From NCBI GenBank assembly GCA_036504815.1, contig DASXUN010000021.1, forward strand, positions 248,001-312,000: DNA of 64,000 nucleotides, written 5' to 3'. Shown here in pieces: positions 3,412 through 55,390 of this stretch; position 1 is the first letter of the stretch; every line of letters starts with the position of its first letter. The position numbers and the translations under genes were made by a program. Below the pieces are notes generated by a model. That model made no database searches. It was given only the letters and a program-made list of their open reading frames with translations, and was not told the origin of the DNA. The DNA is from Gemmatimonadaceae bacterium (lineage in GTDB: Bacteria > Gemmatimonadota > Gemmatimonadetes > Gemmatimonadales > Gemmatimonadaceae).

Positions 3412-3420
3412 GCACTCTAG

Positions 3421-3611
3421 TCTTCTTCACCACGCGGGCCTTTTTCACCACGGAGGCACGGAGGAAGGACTGAGGCCACGGAGGACTGCAAAACCTTGGA
3501 GTAACGACATCGTGCCACGCAGAGATTTGCGTGGCGCGCGCTGTTACCCCAGGAGGTTGTCGTTCCTCCGTGGCCCTTAGGCAGTTCTCCGTGCCTCCGT
3601 GGTGAAAGAAG
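3421..3611. repeat. dispersed palindromic element, copy 1
   Basis: Complete copy. The core inverted repeat begins at the TTTTTCACCACGG end near 3441 and closes at CCGTGGTGAAAGAA near 3610. The apex is CCACGCA, six bases, TGCGTGG. An extra outer arm (TTCTTCACCACG) precedes the core at 3423. It lies between two convergent genes. Apex asymmetry (GTAACGACAT side first) gives it a plus orientation. Confidence 0.93.
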
Positions 3612-3635
3612 CATGCGTGGCGAAGAGAGCCGGCG

Positions 3636-17311: not shown

Positions 17312-17326
17312 AAGCGATCGCGCGGA

Positions 17327-17528
17327 CTTTTTCACCACGGAGGCACGGAGGAAAAGCTGAGGGCCACGGAGAACTGCCACAACTGGGGTTAACTACATCG
17401 CGCCACGCAGCGCTATGCGTGGCGCGCGCTGTTACCCCAAGAAGTTGCAGTTCCTCCGTGGCCCTCAGGTAGTTCTCCGTGCCTCCGTGGTGAAGAAAGC
17501 TAGCTTGCCTTCGTGGTGAAGAAGGCCA
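17327..17528. repeat. dispersed palindromic element, copy 2
   Basis: Complete copy with an additional outer arm on the right (CGTGGTGAAGAAGGCCAAG after the core end near 17500). Apex CCACGCA, six bases, TGCGTGG. It lies between convergent genes (permease and a small minus-strand gene). Plus orientation. Confidence 0.93.
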
Positions 17529-21659: not shown

Positions 21660-21772
21660 TTCTGCCTCCTGCGCCCGGTGATCCCTCGCGTCAGCCGGCA
21701 GGGCAGCCGGCCCGCCCAATTGTCTTACGACTGCCGGTATCGGGTGTCAAGCAAGCTTTCTGTGTGGAATTG

Positions 21773-21952
21773 CTGGACTTTTTCACCACGGAGACACGGA
21801 GAAACGCTGAGGGCCACGGAGGAACTGCTACTTCTTGGGGGAACTGCGCGCGCCACGCAATGATCTGCGTGGCGCGATGTCGTTACCCCGAGTTGTAGTG
21901 GTCCTCCGTGGCCCTCGGCTTTTCCTCCGCGTATCCGTGGTGAAAGAGGCCA
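21773..21952. repeat. dispersed palindromic element, copy 3
   Basis: Complete copy between two minus-strand genes (cold-shock start side and GWxTD end side). The right arm carries small changes (TCCGCGTATCCGTGG). Apex order is reversed compared with copies 1 and 2, so minus orientation. Confidence 0.92.
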
Positions 21953-21968
21953 AGGCGCCACGCCGAGC

Positions 21969-23472: not shown

Positions 23473-24390
23473 GTGGCTCGCGACCCCCTCGTCGGCACGA
23501 CTATTGCCGGATATCTCTTGCTCGACCGCGTTGGAGAAGGTGGCACTGCCACCGTCTACAAGGCCGAGCACCCCGAACACGGTTCCGTCGCCGTAAAGGT
23601 ACTGCGCGAACGTTTGCGCCAGGACCGGACGGCGGTCACCCGCTTCGTGCGTGAGGCGACGTTCGGCACACGGGTGATCCATCCCAAGGTGGTGCGCACC
23701 ATCGAAACTGGCCAGTCGCCCGATGGGCTCCATTACCTCGCCATCGAATGGGCGCCGGGTGAGATCCTCGAGGGGTACGCCAAGCGAAACGCGCCGCTGC
23801 CGCCTGATGAGGTTGCCACCATCATCCAGCAGATCGCCGAAGCCGTGAACGCCGCGCATGCCGCAGGAATCGTGCATCGCGACCTGAAGCCGGAGAACCT
23901 GATGTACGATCCGGCGACGCGAAGCGTGAAACTGCTCGATTTCGGGATTGCGACCGCGACCGATGTGTCGCCGGATGAGCGGCTGACGCGGGCCGGGTTT
24001 TTTGTGGGCACGCTGATGTATGTGGCACCCGAGGCTCTGTCTGGAGAGATCGTCACGCCCGCCGCCGACCAGTACAGCCTGGCCACCATCGCGTATCTGT
24101 TGCTGACCGGCGCGCTGCCGTACACCGCGCGAACGCCACGTGAGATGTTCACGCAACTGCTTTCGCAACCGCCACTTGCGTTGAACAAGGCCAAGCAGGG
24201 CGTGATGTACTCGGCGACCGTCGAGCAAACGGTGATGAAAGCGCTCGAACGTGCGCCCCAGTCGCGGTATTCCGACGTGATGACCTTCTCCGGCGCGCTG
24301 CACTCCGCGTTGCTCGCCCCTGATGCAATAGGTGCAGGGGAAAGCGGCGGATTCTTCGGGAAGATGAAGGGGCTCTTTAAGCGAGACTAG
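23473..24390 (+). CDS. cytoplasmic Hanks-type Ser/Thr protein kinase
   Basis: A 305-residue protein that is almost all kinase domain. Gly-rich loop GEGGTATV (21-28), catalytic lysine in VAVKVL (Lys42), HRDLKPEN with Asp137, DFG at 156-158 and the activation segment GTLMYVAPEA are all present, so it should be active. No membrane segment, PASTA or other sensor follows; only a short basic tail (GFFGKMKGLFKRD) that could touch a membrane. The GTG at 23473 puts the domain at the start. It is divergent from the GWxTD gene and convergent with the histidine kinase gene. Confidence 0.93.
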   Translation: MARDPLVGTTIAGYLLLDRVGEGGTATVYKAEHPEHGSVAVKVLRERLRQDRTAVTRFVREATFGTRVIHPKVVRTIETGQSPDGLHYLAIEWAPGEILEGYAKRNAPLPPDEVATIIQQIAEAVNAAHAAGIVHRDLKPENLMYDPATRSVKLLDFGIATATDVSPDERLTRAGFFVGTLMYVAPEALSGEIVTPAADQYSLATIAYLLLTGALPYTARTPREMFTQLLSQPPLALNKAKQGVMYSATVEQTVMKALERAPQSRYSDVMTFSGALHSALLAPDAIGAGESGGFFGKMKGLFKRD

Positions 24391-24405
24391 GGTGCTTTCG
24401 GGTGC

Positions 24406-24606
24406 GTTTTTTCACCACGGTCGCCACGCTGGACTTTTTCACCACGGAGACACGGAGAACGACCTGAGGGCCACGGAGAACTGCACAACTAGGGGTAACG
24501 ACATCGCGCCACGCAGATCAATGCGTGGCGCTCGCAGTTCCCCCCAAGAAGTTGTAGTTCCTCCGTGGCCCTCTGGCAGTTCTCCGTGCCTCCGTGGTGA
24601 AAAAGC
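24406..24606. repeat. dispersed palindromic element, copy 4
   Basis: Core copy from about 24434, preceded by a duplicated terminal piece (TTTTTTCACCACGG at 24407) 12 bp earlier. It lies between convergent kinase genes. Plus orientation. Confidence 0.93.
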
Positions 24607-24614
24607 CCCGCGCC

Positions 24615-25706
24615 CTATCTCGATATGGCTGGATGCGGCTCGACGAGATCGAGCGGCAGCCAGACGGTGAACGTCGCGCCGGAACCGAGATCGCTTTCCA
24701 CGGTGATGTCCCCACCGAGCAGGCGCGCGAGCCGGCGGGAGATGGAGAGCCCAAGGCCGGTGCCGCGCCGAATGGAATCGCCGCGCGGACCGGCATTCAC
24801 CTGTTCGAACTCCTCGAAGATCCTTTCCTGGTCACGCTCGGCGATGCCCGTTCCCGTGTCGCACACCTGCAGCGCAATGAACGCCCCGCCTTCCGCCAGC
24901 AGCGGCCGGCGGCGTGAACGCCCGGCCATCTGCGCCACCTCACCATCCGGCACACGCAGCGCGCGCACGGTGATGGTACCCTGCTCCGTGAACTTGATGG
25001 CATTGCCGAGAAGGTTCACGAGGATTTGCCGCAGATGAGTGGGATCGGTGTCCACCTTGGGCAGCGTCGCCGGCACCGCGATGCTGAAGGCGAGCCCCTT
25101 CTCGTTGAGCAGCGACTCTACCTCGCTCGCCACGTCGATGACAAACGCGCGCAGGCTGAGCGATTCGGTGGACACCTCGAGACGGCCGGCGGCAAGCTTG
25201 GACAGGTCGAGAATCTGGTCCACGAGCTCGCGTAGGTGGTTGGCGGAGGTTTCAATGCGCTCCACCGGGCCTGCCTGCCGTGCGGAGAGTTCGCCATATG
25301 CGCCGTCGCGGAGCAGGTCGATGAAGCCAACGACGGCGGCGAGCGGCGTACGCAGCTCGTGCGAAACGTTGGCCAGGAACTCGCTCTTGGCCCGATTGGC
25401 GCGCAGCAGTTCTGCAGACAGGCGCTCGAGTTCGTCGGAGCGATCGGCGATGCGTCGCGCCTGCGAGCGTTCGTGCACCAGCGCGATGATGAGCGCCGCG
25501 AGCGCCCCAAGGGCACAGACCCAGAGGACGATGCGATCGCGCCAGATCTCCGCCGCGGACGTGCCGGCCCCTCCGACGTCGAGGGCGTGGCGGGCCAGAT
25601 GATCGCCGACGATCAGTCCCGCTGTCACGCACACCACGACCAAGGCGAGCGCCAGCAGCGACAGGCGCCGCCCCGGACGCCGTGCCGGCATTGACCGCTC
25701 GATCAC
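24615..25706 (-). CDS. membrane sensor histidine kinase (orphan)
   Basis: A 363-residue two-helix membrane kinase. Membrane segments are at about 16-34 and 59-77 with a short outer loop of about 24 residues, so it has little room for a periplasmic sensor. Then come a coiled coil (DELERLSAELLRANRAK), the H box SHELRTPL with His116, the N box (LVNLLGNAIKFTEQG), G1 (DTGTGIAERD) and G2 (GTGLGLSISRRL). No response regulator is adjacent. A shorter start at 25691 (MPARR) is also possible. The stop lies a few bases from element copy 4. Confidence 0.92.
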   Translation of the reverse strand: MIERSMPARRPGRRLSLLALALVVVCVTAGLIVGDHLARHALDVGGAGTSAAEIWRDRIVLWVCALGALAALIIALVHERSQARRIADRSDELERLSAELLRANRAKSEFLANVSHELRTPLAAVVGFIDLLRDGAYGELSARQAGPVERIETSANHLRELVDQILDLSKLAAGRLEVSTESLSLRAFVIDVASEVESLLNEKGLAFSIAVPATLPKVDTDPTHLRQILVNLLGNAIKFTEQGTITVRALRVPDGEVAQMAGRSRRRPLLAEGGAFIALQVCDTGTGIAERDQERIFEEFEQVNAGPRGDSIRRGTGLGLSISRRLARLLGGDITVESDLGSGATFTVWLPLDLVEPHPAISR

Positions 25707-25727: not shown

Positions 25728-26282
25728 ATGGATCCCCACGCCACGCTCGTTCAGATGCTTGCCCAGCGCTCCGCGCGCCGCGGCAATTTCACGCTTGCCT
25801 CCGGACGCCAATCCGACCTTTACATCGACGCCCGGCTCACCACCATGAGCCCCGACGGCCTGGCGGCCATCGGTCCGCTGGCCCTCGCGCGATTTCGCGC
25901 GCGGGGTTGGGCGCCCGATTCCGTCGGTGGGCTGACCTTGGGCGCGGACCCTGTATCATATGCGATTGCGCATGCGAGCGCTCTCGCCAAGACGCCGGTC
26001 CGCGCGTTCACGGTCAGGAAAGAAGCGAAGACGCACGGAACCGGCAAGCTGATTGAAGGACCGTTTCAGGCGGGCGACAAGGTGGTGGTGATCGAAGATG
26101 TGATCACGACCGGCGGTTCCGCGCTGAAGGCGATCGAAGCAATCAAGACGGCCGGCGGCGTGATTGTCGGCGTGCTTGCCGTGGTCGACCGTGAGGAAGG
26201 GGGACGGGAAGCGATCGAGGCGGCCGGGTACGCCGTGGAGTCGCTCGCGGGGGCCCGGGAGATCGTTTCCGCGATGGTTTAG
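25728..26282 (+). CDS. pyrE: orotate phosphoribosyltransferase
   Basis: A 184-residue enzyme that joins orotate and PRPP to form OMP in pyrimidine synthesis. The PRPP-binding loop is VVVIEDVITTGGSALKA (residues about 121-137), the flexible lysine region is RKEAKTHGTGK, and the substrate region is FTLASGRQSDLYIDAR. Length is normal. It is divergent from the histidine kinase with only 21 bp between starts. Confidence 0.95.
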   Translation: MDPHATLVQMLAQRSARRGNFTLASGRQSDLYIDARLTTMSPDGLAAIGPLALARFRARGWAPDSVGGLTLGADPVSYAIAHASALAKTPVRAFTVRKEAKTHGTGKLIEGPFQAGDKVVVIEDVITTGGSALKAIEAIKTAGGVIVGVLAVVDREEGGREAIEAAGYAVESLAGAREIVSAMV

Positions 26283-26290
26283 TGTAGCAC

Positions 26291-26493
26291 TCTGGCCTTC
26301 TTCACCACGCGCGACGCTCGGTTTTTTCACCACGGAGGCACGGAGAAATGCCGGAGGGCCACGGAGTACTGCAAACACTAGGGTAACGACAGCGCGCCAC
26401 GCAGAGCATTGCGTGGCGCGCGCAGTTCCTCCAAGAAGTTGTTATTCCTCTGTGGTCCTCAGGCAGTTCTCCGTGCCTCCGTGGTGAAAAAGG
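26291..26493. repeat. dispersed palindromic element, copy 5
   Basis: Complete copy with an extra outer left arm (CTGGCCTTCTTCACCACGC, from 26292) before the core start near 26323. It lies between convergent pyrE and the GxxExxY gene, ending 22 bp from the stop of the latter. Plus orientation. Confidence 0.93.
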
Positions 26494-26514
26494 CACGAGT
26501 TGTGCCACGCAAAG

Positions 26515-26907
26515 CTAGTTGACGAAGCGTCGGACGCCGTGCGCCAGCTTGATCACGTTGAAGTTGATCAACAGGCCCCTGCTGAAGCCGCCAAGACGCA
26601 AATACGTCAGCAGTTGGGCGCAGTGCACGGGAAGCACAGTATCGACGGCTTTCAGCTCCACCACGAGATCCCGGTCGACCACCAAGTCGATTCGCAACAG
26701 ACCGTCCAACGTGGCGCCTTTGTACGAGACGGGAAGCATCACCTCGCTGGCGAAGTCGATATTTCGGGCGACTAGTTCCTGCTCCATTGCCGTGGCGTAC
26801 ACCGATTCAAGCAGCCCGGGCCCAAGGTGCCGATGCACCTCAATGGCCGCGCCAATTACTCGTTCGGTGAGCACGTCTGGTTCGAGCTTCAGGTCCGGCG
26901 ATGGCAT
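26515..26907 (-). CDS. GxxExxY family protein (PDDEXK_3 nuclease fold)
   Basis: A 130-residue protein whose family signature is G31-LL-E34-SV-Y37. Further on D74 (in RIDLVV) and E84-x-K86 (in VVELKAV) form the core of a PD-(D/E)xK nuclease site, so it looks catalytically intact. Family members are of unknown function and usually about 125-135 residues. It is a single gene enclosed by element copies 5 and 6, 22 and 24 bp away, with no other gene in between. That placement suggests it could act on the element or be carried with it. Confidence 0.93.
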   Translation of the reverse strand: MPSPDLKLEPDVLTERVIGAAIEVHRHLGPGLLESVYATAMEQELVARNIDFASEVMLPVSYKGATLDGLLRIDLVVDRDLVVELKAVDTVLPVHCAQLLTYLRLGGFSRGLLINFNVIKLAHGVRRFVN

Positions 26908-26930
26908 TGAGGTCTCAGTGGTTGGACGAT

Positions 26931-27125
26931 AGCTCTTTCACCACGGAGGCACGGAGAACTGCCTGAGGGCCACGGAGGACTACAACTTCTTGGAGGAACC
27001 ACGTGCACCGCGCAAAGTCATGCGTGGCGCGATGTCGTTACCCTAGCCGTAGTAGTTCTCCGTGGCTCTCAAGTAGTTCTCCGTGCCTCCGTGGTGAAGA
27101 AGTCCAGCGTGGTGAAAAAGCCCAG
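26931..27125. repeat. dispersed palindromic element, copy 6
   Basis: Complete copy with an extra outer right arm (GCGTGGTGAAAAAGCCCAGC). Its right end abuts the stop codon (CTA on the plus strand, 27126) of the AraC-type gene. It follows the GxxExxY start by 24 bp. Apex less perfect (CCGCGCA/TGCGTGG). Minus orientation. Confidence 0.92.
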
Positions 27126-28004
27126 CTATGCCGCCGATTGACGCGGCCGGCCAAGGGGGCGGCCGGAAAGCGGGCGCAGGTCGAGCAACTTGTCGCGGTG
27201 CGGACGCAAGAGTTCGTCACGGAACCGGTTGAGCATGGCCTGGCCGTCGTGCGCTCGGCGAAACTCGCCCGCGGTAATGCCCAGCACGGTCTTGACGTGC
27301 CGGCCAAAACTCTGGGCCGACGAGTACTCGAGCTGGTTTGACGCATCGGCGATGCTGAGGCCCGGGTTCTCGAGCAGGCGCGCGGCGCGCACTAGGCGCG
27401 CCCAGGCGAGATACCGCTTCGGCGCCGGAAGGCCGGCGCGGAAGAACCGGCTCATCAGCGTGCTGGGCAGCACCTGCAGCGCACGCGCCAGGGTGCGGAC
27501 CGTCGTCACTGGCTGACGTCCGTGAAAGAGCGCCTCGAAGAACCTCCAGCAGTCGTCCGGCGCTCCTTCGAGTTCCTCGCGCAACATCGCCAGCGCGAGA
27601 CGGTCGATTTCACCGACGGCTTCGCGCGCAACAAAGTCGCGCAGGCGATGCCATCCGGTGGCGTCGCGCACGTCCACCAGGTTGCGGATGCCGCAGTTGC
27701 CCAGATTCAGCACGGCGTGTGGCGTGCTCTGGTCGACGCGCGAGAGGAGGGCCACCATCGGAACCCGCGGAAACTCGCGCACCAGTCGGGCCACGCCCGG
27801 CGCGTGGTCCGTCAGGGGTCGTCCGACCGACATGAAGACAGCAGCAGGGGCGATGCGGCGTACTTCGTGACGAAGCGCATCTACGGAGTCGTGGTGCACG
27901 GCACGATAGACGCCGCTGCCCGCCGCGTCGACACGGGGACGATCGTTGGGCTCGACCCACGTGAGCACGGCGGGAGCAAGCGACGGCGCGAAGCGAGCGG
28001 TCAT
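27126..28004 (-). CDS. AraC-family DNA-binding protein with a degenerate receiver-like N-terminus
   Basis: A 292-residue regulator. The C-terminal part carries an AraC helix-turn-helix pair: ARALQVLPSTLMSRFFRAG and IADASNQLEYSSAQSFGRHVKTVLG with GITAGEFRR. The N-terminal 120 residues resemble a response-regulator fold (PAVLTWVEPND, AAVFMSVGRPL, PMVALLSRVD), but I cannot identify a clear phospho-acceptor Asp triad, so it probably works without phosphorylation. It is divergent from rnpB. Target genes are unknown. Confidence 0.8.
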   Translation of the reverse strand: MTARFAPSLAPAVLTWVEPNDRPRVDAAGSGVYRAVHHDSVDALRHEVRRIAPAAVFMSVGRPLTDHAPGVARLVREFPRVPMVALLSRVDQSTPHAVLNLGNCGIRNLVDVRDATGWHRLRDFVAREAVGEIDRLALAMLREELEGAPDDCWRFFEALFHGRQPVTTVRTLARALQVLPSTLMSRFFRAGLPAPKRYLAWARLVRAARLLENPGLSIADASNQLEYSSAQSFGRHVKTVLGITAGEFRRAHDGQAMLNRFRDELLRPHRDKLLDLRPLSGRPLGRPRQSAA

Positions 28005-28182: not shown

Positions 28183-28555
28183 GGAGGTCGGTCGGCCGGA
28201 CGGTCGCGTCGCGTGAAAACGCGCCGAGGAAAGTCCGGGCTCCATGGACACGCTGCCAGGTAACGCCTGGGCACATCGTAAGATGTGACGGACAGTGCAA
28301 CAGAAAAGACACCGCCTTTGCGCAAGCGGAGGTAAGGGTGAAATGGTGGGGTAAGAGCCCACCGCGCGCGTGGCAACATGCGTGGCAAGGCAAACCCCAG
28401 CGGGAGCAAGGCCAAATAGGCGGCGAGCAGCAGTCCTCTGCGATCAAGACGCCGCGGGTTGGCTGCTAGAGCGTGCGGGCGACCGTACGCCCAGAGAAAT
28501 GACCGTCCGGGACTTCGGTTCCGACAGAACCCGGCTTATAGGCCGGCCGATTTCC
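28183..28555 (+). ncRNA. rnpB: RNase P RNA (bacterial type A)
   Basis: The catalytic RNA that trims tRNA 5' ends. The conserved 5' P4 strand region GAGGAAAGTCCGGGCTCC starts near 28226, and the 3' partner ACAGAACCCGGCTTATAGGCC lies near 28525. The ends pair as P1 (GGTCGGTCGGCC near 28186 with GGCCGGCCGATT near 28541). Internal marks such as GACGGACAGTGCAACAGAAA and GGTAAGGGTGAAATGGTGGGGTAAGAGCCCACC fit the specificity domain. Ends are approximate. The protein subunit gene rnpA is about 5 kb away. Confidence 0.96.
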
Positions 28556-28600: not shown

Positions 28601-28787
28601 CGCCACGCTGGGCTCTTTCACCACGGAGGCACGGAGGAAAAGCGGAGGGCCACGGAGAAACTGCACCTTCTTGGGGGAACTGCGCTCGCCACGCCAGAGC
28701 ATGTTTGGCGCGCTGTTGTTACCCCAAGTTGTAATAGTTCTCCGTGGCCCTCAGCCTTTCCTCCGTGCCTCCGTGGTGAAGAAACCC
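28601..28787. repeat. dispersed palindromic element, copy 7
   Basis: Copy between the rnpB terminator and the following lipoprotein gene. Preceded by CGCCACGCTGGGC, a trace of an outer arm. The apex has decayed (CCACGCC/TGTTTGG). Minus orientation. Confidence 0.92.
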
Positions 28788-28835
28788 CGCGCTTGTGGGG
28801 TAGTTATCCAAACCCGCGGAGATCATCTTCTGGAT

Positions 28836-29696: not shown

Positions 29697-29718
29697 ACTT
29701 GGTTTGGTGTGGCACAAT

Positions 29719-29892
29719 GCCTTTTTCACCACGGAGACACGGAAGAGCACGGAGGGCCACGGAGGACTGCTGCAACTGGGGTAACGACATCGCGCCACGC
29801 AGACTATTGCGTGGCGCGCGCTGTAACCCCAAGAAGTTGCAGTCCTCCGTGGCCCTCAGCCTTTCCTCCGTGCCTCCGTGGTGAAAAAGCCT
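29719..29892. repeat. dispersed palindromic element, copy 8
   Basis: Complete, near-perfect copy between the convergent lipoprotein gene and dnaN. Its last bases overlap the dnaN stop codon (TAG read on the minus strand at 29891-29893). Apex CCACGCA/TGCGTGG. Plus orientation. Confidence 0.94.
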
Positions 29893-31000
29893 AGTCGACG
29901 AGCCGCAACGGCATCAGCAGGCAGAGATACTTGGCCGGGTCGTTCCAGCCCTCCGGTTCGATGGTCGCTGCGCGCTCGGGAGCCTTGAAGCTGACCTTCA
30001 CTTCGTCGGTGGGGAGGAAGCGCAGGATCTCGAGCAAGTACGCCGCGTTGAAACCGATCTCGAGGGGGTCGCCGTTGTAACGGATCGCCATCTCGTCCTG
30101 GGCTTCGCCAAGATCGGGGGTGGAGACGTTGAACTTCAGCATCCCGGCGTTGAACGACAGACGAATGCGGTGCGTCTGGTCGGAGGCAACCACCGACATG
30201 CGCTTCAGCGCGCTGATGAACGCGGCCTTGTCGATGGTGACGATCTTATCGTTGTCCTTGGGGATGACCTGATCGTAGCTGGGATACGGCCCTTCAATGA
30301 GGCGCGTGAAGACGGCGGTGAACGGCGAGCGGAAACCAAGGTGGTTCTCGCCCTGCGCGACTTCGAGCTCTTCTTCGGCCGGGAAGAGCCGGCGAATCTG
30401 CTCGAGCGCCTTCGGTGGGATGATGAGGTCCGCATGATCGCCCGTGCCGCGCACGGGGACTTCCATCTTCGCCAGGCGATGGCCGTTGGTGGCGACCATC
30501 CGCATCACGTCAGCACGCAGTTCCCAAAGAACGCCGTTGAGAATGGGCCGGCTTTCTTCGGTGGAGGCGGCAAAGGCGGTGTGCGCGATGAGCTTCTGCA
30601 ACTCACCTGACGGAATCCGGATGCTCTTGTCGAAGTTCACCGCGGGGAACGACGGGAACTCGGACTTCGGGAGTCCAAGCAACTTGAACTTCGAGCGACC
30701 ACACTCGAGTGAGATGCGCTGATCCCCCGACGACGAAATGCGCACCGGCGCCGCGGGCAGCTCGCGCGCGATTTCAGAAAGCTTCTTGGCGGGGATCGTG
30801 ATCGCGCCGGCTGATTCCACGTCGGCCGTCACTTCCGTTGACACCGCGATATCGAGATCGGTGCCCGAAATGCGAATTCCCTTGTCCGTGGTTTGGACAA
30901 GCAGGTTGGCCAGCACCGGCAGCGTCGTCTTTGTAGGAACCGACGAAGCCACGGCGTTCAACCCTTCCTGCAGCTTCTCGCGAGAGATCGTGAACCGCAT
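29891..31000 (-). CDS. dnaN: DNA polymerase III beta sliding clamp
   Basis: A 369-residue clamp made of three repeated domains. MRFTISREKLQEGLNAVASSVPTK starts it, and YLLEILRFLPTDEV plus the C-terminal LLMPLRL (the usual ending of the family) close it. It lies downstream of dnaA on the same strand, separated by 233 bp containing the origin elements. The stop codon overlaps the end of palindromic element copy 8. Confidence 0.97.
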   Translation of the reverse strand: MRFTISREKLQEGLNAVASSVPTKTTLPVLANLLVQTTDKGIRISGTDLDIAVSTEVTADVESAGAITIPAKKLSEIARELPAAPVRISSSGDQRISLECGRSKFKLLGLPKSEFPSFPAVNFDKSIRIPSGELQKLIAHTAFAASTEESRPILNGVLWELRADVMRMVATNGHRLAKMEVPVRGTGDHADLIIPPKALEQIRRLFPAEEELEVAQGENHLGFRSPFTAVFTRLIEGPYPSYDQVIPKDNDKIVTIDKAAFISALKRMSVVASDQTHRIRLSFNAGMLKFNVSTPDLGEAQDEMAIRYNGDPLEIGFNAAYLLEILRFLPTDEVKVSFKAPERAATIEPEGWNDPAKYLCLLMPLRLVD

Positions 31001-32682: not shown

Positions 32683-32863
32683 TAGCTGGACTTTTTCACC
32701 ACGGAGGCACGGAGGACTGATGAGGGCCACGGAGGACTACAAGAAACTGGGGGTAACGACAGCGCGCCGAGCAGAAATTGGAGTGGCAAGCGCAGTTCCC
32801 CCAAGAAGTCGCAGTTCTCCGTGGCCCTCTATGAACCTCCGTGTCTCCGTGGTGAAAAAAGCC
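32683..32863. repeat. dispersed palindromic element, copy 9
   Basis: A somewhat diverged copy (apex CCGAGCA/GGAGTGG) sitting 55 bp before dnaA, between divergent dnaA and rpmH. This is the only copy in a divergent gap. Plus orientation. The whole gap 32629-33015 otherwise holds a DnaA box and the rpmH promoter. Confidence 0.9.
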
Positions 32864-32898
32864 GCGGACCCACGAGGGAGCCGAGGTTATGAGCCCGA

Positions 32899-40490: not shown

Positions 40491-40676
40491 GGCTGGGCTT
40501 TTTCACCACGGAGGCACGGAGAACTGCTTGAGGGCCACGGAGGCTGCAACTGCAACTTCTTGGGGGAACTGCGCGCGCCACGCATAGATCTGCGTGGCGC
40601 GATGTCGTTACCCCAGTTGTAGCAGTTCTCCGTGGCCCTCCGTGCTCCTCCGGGTCTCCGTGGTGAAAAAGGCTAG
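40491..40676. repeat. dispersed palindromic element, copy 11
   Basis: Complete copy between the beta-CASP gene and the M16 pair, with ends GGCTGGGCTTTTTCACC and GGTGAAAAAGGCTAGC. Apex CCACGCA/TGCGTGG. Minus orientation. Confidence 0.94.
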
Positions 40677-40720
40677 CAATGGGGTACCTGTGCCAGCGTG
40701 CCGGGCCCAAATTCAGCGGC

Positions 40721-44153: not shown

Positions 44154-44783
44154 ATGCGACAGACGGCCCTCAAGGTTCAGCCTGTTGTTCCGTTCAGGAA
44201 AGCGGATCTGCAAACGCTCGATGACAATCAGCTGGTCACCTCATACTTGGACGGTGTCAGCTTTGCCTTCGACGTGCTGGTCGAGCGCTATCAGACGCGG
44301 CTGCTGAACTTCGTGTACCGCACCGTGGGTGACCGGGAACGCGCCGAGGACCTGGTGCAGGAAGTCTTCATCCGCGTGCACCGGCACCTTGCCCGCTTCG
44401 ACCGGTCGAAGAAGTTCTCGACGTGGATCTACACGATCGCGTCGAACCTGGCGAAGAACGAACTCCGGAACCGGGCGCGGAATCCGCTGGTCTATTTCCA
44501 GACGATGACGTCGGGGTGGGAAGATGAGGATCGGCCGCTCGAGTTCGAGGATACCTCGGCTCGCCCGGACGATGCCTTCGATCGCCGACACCTGCGGGAG
44601 CTGGTAGACGCCGCCGTGCGCCGGTTGCCGGCGCATCACCGGCAGGTCTTTGTCCTGCGGGAGCTGGATGGGCGGTCCTACGAAGAGATCGCCGAGATGA
44701 CCAACTGCAACCTCGGCACCGTGAAGTCGCGGCTGAATCGGGCCCGGGCGGCGTTCGCCGAGATCGTGGGGCCGGTGCTCTAG
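44154..44783 (+). CDS. ECF-type RNA polymerase sigma factor
   Basis: A 209-residue sigma factor. Region 2 reads FDVLVERYQTRLLNFVYRTVGDRERAEDLVQEVFIRVHRHL with DLVQEVF, and FSTWIYTIASNLAKNELR closes it. Region 4 is RLPAHHRQVFVLRELDGRSYEEIAEMTNCNLGTVKSRLNRAR. It resembles RpoE-like groups. The ATG at 44154 has GGAGGAG just upstream. A second ribosome site and ATG stand 26 bp earlier in another frame. Its anti-sigma gene follows after element copy 12. Confidence 0.95.
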   Translation: MRQTALKVQPVVPFRKADLQTLDDNQLVTSYLDGVSFAFDVLVERYQTRLLNFVYRTVGDRERAEDLVQEVFIRVHRHLARFDRSKKFSTWIYTIASNLAKNELRNRARNPLVYFQTMTSGWEDEDRPLEFEDTSARPDDAFDRRHLRELVDAAVRRLPAHHRQVFVLRELDGRSYEEIAEMTNCNLGTVKSRLNRARAAFAEIVGPVL

Positions 44784-44964
44784 CTGGCCTTTTTCACCAC
44801 GGAGGCACGGAGAGCTGCCTGAGGGCCACGGAGGACGGCAACTTCTTGGGTTACAACGTGCGCCACGCGGTTCTTTGCGTGGCGCGATGTCTTTACCCCC
44901 AGTTGTGGCCGTTCTCCGTGGCCCTCCGCGTTTCTCCGTGCCTCCGTGGTGAAAAAGGCCAGCT
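44782..44964. repeat. dispersed palindromic element, copy 12
   Basis: Complete copy with the longest matching ends: AGCTGGCCTTTTTCACC and GGTGAAAAAGGCCAGCT. It directly follows the sigma factor stop codon and separates the sigma from its anti-sigma gene. Minus orientation. Confidence 0.94.
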
Positions 44965-55193: not shown

Positions 55194-55198
55194 TTCCT

Positions 55199-55390
55199 CT
55201 GGCCTTTTTCACCACGAAGGCACGGAGGAGCACGGAGGAGCACGGAGGGCCACGGAGGACTGCCACTTCTTGGGGGAACTGTGCGCGCCACGCAATGATC
55301 TGCGTGGCGCGATGTCTTTACCCTCAGTTCTTGGCCGTTCTCCGTGGCCGTCCGTGCTTCTCCGTGTCTCCGTGGTGAAGAAAGCCAGCT
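55199..55390. repeat. dispersed palindromic element, copy 13
   Basis: Complete copy between convergent queF and pheA. The left arm contains a duplicated GGAGCACGGA unit, making it slightly longer. Apex CCACGCA/TGCGTGG. Minus orientation. Confidence 0.94.

Follow-up and report, generated by a model that had tools for sequence, protein, structure and literature searches.

The locus and its hairpin elements

The window, the stretch of 64,000 nucleotides analysed here, contains a 130-aa open reading frame (ORF) on the minus strand (26515-26907), with pyrE (25728-26282) on one side and a gene encoding an AraC-type regulator (27126-28004) on the other. This ORF is a GxxExxY/PDDEXK_3 gene: it matched PF13366 (PDDEXK_3) with E=3e-38 (131.1 bits vs. 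a curated cut-off of 22) and TIGR04256 (GxxExxY) with E=1e-38 (132.3 bits vs. a curated cut-off of 35), and by the curated models and its motif it is a clear member of the family. PF13366 was the only Pfam domain found in the gene product, which gave no match to the HUH Y1 transposase, and a genome-wide profile search showed it to be the single PF13366 gene of the 3.5 Mb genome (G000).

The initial annotation had ascribed to the protein a PD-(D/E)xK site (D74, E84 and K86) and a GLLESVY signature, all of which were found in the ORF, and the site residues were conserved among 30 relatives. In the alignment of these relatives E34, Y37, D74, K86, Q98 and Y102 were invariant and E84 was nearly so; no cysteine column was invariant or nearly invariant, and the window protein has one cysteine. 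The motifs follow the order known from the Cas4/RecB group (E34, D74, E84xK86, Q98xxxY102). An AlphaFold2 model of the window protein (pLDDT 93) had the Cas4 nuclease SSO0001 as its top structural match (Z 9.8, well clear of others), followed among the Foldseek matches by lambda exonuclease and RecE; no solved structure was matched when the PDB was searched with the protein sequence. The protein thus models as a minimal Cas4/RecB-type PD-(D/E)xK nuclease, a predicted assignment. With SSO0001, lambda exonuclease and RecE it has in common the fold and the motif order (acidic residue, D, ExK, QxxxY), but unlike Cas4 it has ~120 residues, is without the four cysteines of the iron-sulphur cluster and has no cas genes adjoining it here. 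A cas4 gene has been labelled GxxExxY by a database pipeline (PMC8934634). The GxxExxY protein is under purifying selection, with dN/dS values of 0.12-0.22 for intact congener copies wherever dS was computable.

Twelve complete copies of a hairpin lie in the window (Table 1). Each has a left arm TTCACCACGGAGRCACGGAG, with ≤2 mismatches allowed, and 141-152 bp further on the reverse complement of that arm; the predicted folds of the window copies range from -113 to -149 kcal/mol. Genome-wide, we counted ~41 such hairpins (41 forward and 42 reverse arms vs. 2 in the control), 13 of 41 being situated ≤30 kb from the GxxExxY gene compared to 0.7 expected (binomial p ~1e-13). An Rfam search found no family for them. 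Hairpins 5 and 6, each ~163 bp, enclose the gene, with arms at 26326-26488 and 26937-27098 and gaps of ~26 and 29 bp between arm and ORF; their outer palindromes reach to ~26498 and start at ~26927, shortening these gaps, so that the distances of 22 and 24 bp originally given are fair if the outer palindromes are counted. The asymmetric apices of the two copies do point in opposite orientation around this single gene, as had been described.

Table 1. Hairpin elements and a related arm fragment in the window.
Feature	Position	Strand	Remark
Dispersed hairpin element 1	3434..3616	+	
Dispersed hairpin element 2	17321..17504	-	
Dispersed hairpin element 3	21772..21954	-	
Dispersed hairpin element 4	24428..24611	+	Empty site in G114, G300
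Arm fragment TTCACCACGCG outside element 5	26287..26311	+	Copy at 3412-3436 (repeat family D17)
Hairpin element 5	26316..26498	+	Directly 3' of gene; congeners without it at this place
Hairpin element 6	26927..27110	-	Directly 5' of gene; position common to G031, G298, G230
Dispersed hairpin element 7	28607..28790	-	
Dispersed hairpin element 8	29715..29895	+	
Dispersed hairpin element 9	32685..32866	+	Empty site in G114, G230
Dispersed hairpin element 10	40492..40677	-	
Dispersed hairpin element 11	44783..44963	+	Palindrome extends out to AGCTGGCCTTT
Dispersed hairpin element 12	55198..55389	+	

Compensatory pairing within single hairpins of the window was considered and rejected, as a hairpin's own arms match each other less well than they match the arms of other hairpins; since own arms are not the better matched, pairing is not kept up copy by copy in G000. 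A class A RNase P RNA was observed at 28188-28554 (+), ~50 bp before hairpin 7. When window positions 24377-24626 were compared with locus L124 of the congener G031, synteny was broken and inverted exactly at the hairpin at 24428-24611, as if recombination had occurred between inverted hairpins.

Gene lineages and hairpin families among congeners

Eleven congeneric genomes were compared. The gene occupies the pyrE site in G000, G031, G298, G230 and G300; G114 and a second contig of G300 have an empty site. Of the five genomes with the gene there, the first four have a hairpin immediately 5' of it, each species with its own hairpin sequence: the G298 type occurred at 30 sites in G298 vs. 0-1 in each of ten congeners, and the G230 type at 185 sites in G230 vs. 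0-1 in the other congeners. A second GxxExxY lineage is present at another site in G031, G123, G114, G222, G298 and G230 (two near-identical copies). The 5' hairpin of lineage 2, CCRCGGATKACRCGGAT, was found at 59, 23, 38 and 7 sites in G031, G123, G114 and G222, respectively, and at 0-5 sites in five genomes without this lineage; in G298 and G230, lineage 2 occurs with other hairpin types alongside, and there were few or no matches to the lineage-2 pattern. The clearest case of a gene lineage pairing with a hairpin family was G114, which has no lineage-1 gene and 5 lineage-1 unit pairs, together with a lineage-2 gene and 38 lineage-2 sites. Overall, cognate pairing of gene lineage with hairpin family is shown within the genus.

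The pyrE-site copy of G300 has VALKS and APLLTY in place of the VELKA and AQLLTY of the others, and has lost both the catalytic glutamate of ExK (AxK) and the glutamine of QxxxY (PxxxY). It sits on a long branch in the tree and has no hairpin adjoining it, and only 9 unit pairs were counted in G300 vs. 78-158 in the four congeners whose lineage-1 gene is intact. This coincidence of broken catalytic residues with scarce hairpins is a single case and could be due to chance.

Individual hairpin sites also varied between congeners. The sites of elements 4 and 9 are each empty in two genomes (Table 1), with 47-48 bp between the two genes at the former and about 55 bp between the genes at the latter, and the intergenic gap was in general about 50 bp when empty vs. 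about 260 bp when filled. The exact insertion junctions are unreadable, because the empty sites are found between species and the intergenic DNA is too diverged.

These comparisons bear on the possibility that the arms are regulatory sites of the gene (an attenuator, a terminator or an autoregulatory operator), with the scattered copies providing other genes with terminators or nucleoid sites. Such a role would suit hairpins that are predicted to fold very stably, are intergenic and in four species hold the same 5' position at the orthologous locus. We nevertheless consider it highly improbable, as hairpin sequence has been replaced wholesale between congeners while the gene stayed, copy number among congeners varies between almost none and more than a hundred, and a hairpin can be present or absent at the same intergenic gap.

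Several features of hairpin distribution were noted besides. On contig C27 of G031 (L124), the CATCACAGAGACAC hairpin type, which matches the gene's own hairpin, was concentrated on the contig that carries the gene, and a second type, CACGGAGCNCACGGAG, was spread over other contigs, a distribution that may reflect either local spread or successive waves. Arms also occurred in regular direct arrays in G298 (C5:61790-61887, spacing 40 bp) and G230 (C3:21656-22021, spacing 174 bp).

Hairpins and enclosing repeats across the phylum and beyond

In a sample of 298 genomes of the phylum, in which genomes with three or more arm matches were classed as arm-rich, PF13366 was present in 18/23 arm-rich genomes compared to 78/275 others (Fisher p = 3e-6, ignoring kinship). 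An association of elements with GxxExxY genes, which the initial annotation had suggested testing across genomes, was therefore observed. That annotation had also held that many element-rich genomes devoid of the gene would count against a link, and genomes of this kind do exist but are a minority, amounting to 5/23 in the phylum sample plus three congeners. In the five (G174, G049, G205, G217 and G243) PF13366 was absent even at E ≤ 10, one spurious match aside; a decayed GxxExxY gene in G243 was considered and dismissed, since the weak match (E 0.36) did not read as the family. Among congeners, G123 and G222 had hairpins of the family-1 type and no detected lineage-1 gene. Hairpins without a matching gene were thus found in seven genomes in total, as one of the three congeners is among the five of the phylum sample. 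Most of these genomes are drafts, and in G174 the contig breaks off immediately short of where the gene would lie; it is equally possible that the gene was lost and the hairpins persisted. We also observed, at a contig end in G049 (L223; G049:C34:1-180), a hairpin inside a far longer near-perfect palindrome that includes its flanks, which is probably an assembly artefact.

We then examined 80 named GxxExxY loci from reference genomes, picked by protein similarity only, of which 75 were usable; the phyla represented include Planctomycetota, Verrucomicrobia, Acidobacteria, Chloroflexi, Bacteroidota, Proteobacteria and Cyanobacteria, and an archaeon, Methanothrix, was also included. An enclosing inverted repeat was defined as one within 130 bp of the gene with a score of at least 15, and windows shifted along the same loci served as controls. 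Such a repeat enclosed the gene at 53/75 loci (71%) vs. 0/1,753 shifted control windows, so that the flanking of GxxExxY genes by elements, which had been put forward from the one locus, holds well beyond controls. The arms are ~28 bp long and consist of TTCACC-RC-RGAG followed by two more units of 8-9 nt each, with TTCACC/TTAACC at the outer border. Arm types differ by locus (CACAGAG, CGCAGAG, CACGAAG, CGCAAAG), and the two arms of a locus matched each other with a median of 20.5 vs. 9.5 for arms swapped between loci. No target-site duplication was found at 56 loci (mean 0.63 vs. 0.70 for shuffled pairs; none ≥5 nt), which makes staggered-cut DDE-type insertion unlikely. At five betaproteobacterial loci (L036, L038, L044, L051 and L063) the element appeared to be at one place, just before the start of the same gene, trpG-like when judged by eye, which would represent an old insertion or a preferred site. 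The five plasmid records looked at for strain-level polymorphism were all distant.

The general unit of these loci is not the one first proposed. A composite cassette of element, gene and element had been read from the window; we rejected it, because congeners have only the 5' hairpin in common and elsewhere single arms of ~28 bp are usual. A gene-less hairpin is best read as two ~28-bp arms brought together. At G065:C94 (L153), a GxxExxY gene has a large internal deletion between intact arms, and internal deletion between intact arms is a common origin of non-autonomous copies. In G227, the arms of the gene are identical to those of short gene-less hairpins.

The neighbours of the gene were mostly co-directional with it (45/52 loci downstream, 35/49 upstream), and the arms frequently stop a few bases short of the next start codon. 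Both observations would suit an RNA element resembling an intervening sequence, in which the arms pair in the transcript, RNase III removes the stem, the insert is tolerated in operons and the protein counts as minor cargo; a small ORF likewise exists in the 23S rRNA intervening sequence (PMC4990558), and PF05635 genes have a similar layout. For the window itself, a 23S rRNA intervening sequence was ruled out, as the gene, a PF13366 member, has pyrE and the AraC-type gene as its neighbours. An RNA element of this sort is nonetheless very unlikely, because the G000 gene is flanked by whole hairpins rather than single arms, removal from RNA would leave the dispersed gene-less hairpins and the cognate types unexplained, and the invariant catalytic residues suggest that the protein itself may cut.

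The genes of PF05635 (23S_rRNA_IVP), which encode a four-helix bundle, resemble GxxExxY genes in being small ORFs between inverted arrays of short units, but the protein is unrelated and the units are mostly of 7 nt and of other sequence (GTCAGGA, GGCTATT, TATCAGG and others). An enclosing inverted repeat with a score of at least 15 was found in 63% of 30 PF05635 loci of the phylum (L154-L183), and the family occurred in 105/200 genomes searched, with 7 copies in the genome of the window. At L203 (G222:C26:31200-32200), a four-helix-bundle ORF lies between CACAGAG-type arms like those of GxxExxY genes. Together, the PF05635 repeats and the G222 arms indicate that the nuclease is not alone in having such arms.

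Something other than the nuclease (an IS transposase, a reverse transcriptase or replication slippage) might move the arms and hairpins, leaving the GxxExxY protein as a passenger or as a cruciform-cutting controller that limits damage. This would accommodate the 5/23 arm-rich genomes with hairpins and no detectable gene, the PF05635 genes between inverted repeats of their own type (one with CACAGAG-type arms) and a lone PD-(D/E)xK enzyme that has no known joining activity. It is at odds with a gene that lies within tens of bases of arms at most loci in many phyla, with hairpin type tracking gene lineage, and with loss of catalytic residues being accompanied by fewer, not more, hairpins, and we judge it rather unlikely.

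A candidate two-part mobile element

Our preferred reading, to which we assign a probability of roughly two in three, is that a selfish element of two parts, the GxxExxY gene and its hairpins, works in the manner of RAYT/REPIN, with a Cas4/RecB-type PD-(D/E)xK nuclease mobilising its cognate hairpins. The initial proposal that the gene is the partner of the hairpins is strongly supported by the arms found at loci across phyla, the enrichment of the gene among arm-rich genomes and the cognate types, but the genomes with hairpins and no gene weigh against it. Because the gene lies between matching inverted repeats and each version has its own hairpin family, the arrangement suggests a kind of mobile element not described before.

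In the proposed mechanism, the source would be a gene lying between whole hairpins or between inverted ~28-bp arms that are composed of ~9-nt units, and gene-less hairpins would be its non-autonomous copies. The nuclease would recognise its own arms, most likely in folded single-stranded DNA during replication, or in cruciforms, and would cut near the base of the hairpin, after which repair or replication would put a copy at a nearby intergenic site. We know of no DNA-joining activity in PD-(D/E)xK nucleases, and so the joining step would have to come from the host.

Compared to known systems, the closest parallel is with RAYT (TnpA_REP)/REPIN, or the REPtron, where a mostly single-copy gene at a fixed site has hairpins of its own type beside it, numerous non-autonomous inverted hairpins occupy intergenic positions in the same genome, and enzyme and hairpin types co-vary (PMC3116915, PMC8266576). 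The elements described here are similar in having a mostly single-copy gene at a fixed site, dispersed hairpins cognate to those flanking the gene, and few hairpins where the enzyme is broken. They are unlike RAYT/REPIN in that the enzyme is a PD-(D/E)xK nuclease rather than a HUH Y1 transposase, a distinction drawn at the outset and upheld by both the Pfam and the structural comparisons, and in that the arms are arrays of ~9-nt units and, as in insertion sequences, arms often surround the gene. With MITEs and insertion sequences they have in common the enclosing terminal inverted repeats, the short gene-less derivatives and an internally deleted copy (L153), but a DDE, serine or tyrosine recombinase is missing, as is a target-site duplication. 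Repeats of seven nucleotides, in part arranged as inverted pairs, have been described in Xanthomonas and Nostoc with no link to a gene given (PMC4692102). In the open-access literature GxxExxY was mentioned in passing only, with no function or link to repeats, and the arm sequence was not found there.

As far as the genomes show, then, the system behaves as a RAYT/REPIN pair does, yet it lacks a defining feature of each known kind tested: the HUH enzyme, the target duplication or a known recombinase, and the cysteines of Cas4. It is conceivable, at somewhat less than even odds, that it represents a widespread class of bacterial and archaeal elements whose sole enzyme, a Cas4/RecB-like nuclease of ~120 residues, copies or moves hairpins without a transposase, a recombinase or target duplication, and that the unrelated genes of the PF05635 type, with repeat arms of their own, could be another branch of this strategy.

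GxxExxY proteins are annotated as of unknown function in bacteria and archaea, and the link to cognate hairpins supplies a candidate role for them. The same link between lineage and hairpin would explain the CACAGAG-type repeats that are scattered in many environmental genomes. If the nuclease does move the hairpins, this would be DNA that spreads with a restriction-fold nuclease as the only enzyme encoded by the element, and a second, independent origin of the kind of arrangement known from REP and RAYT.
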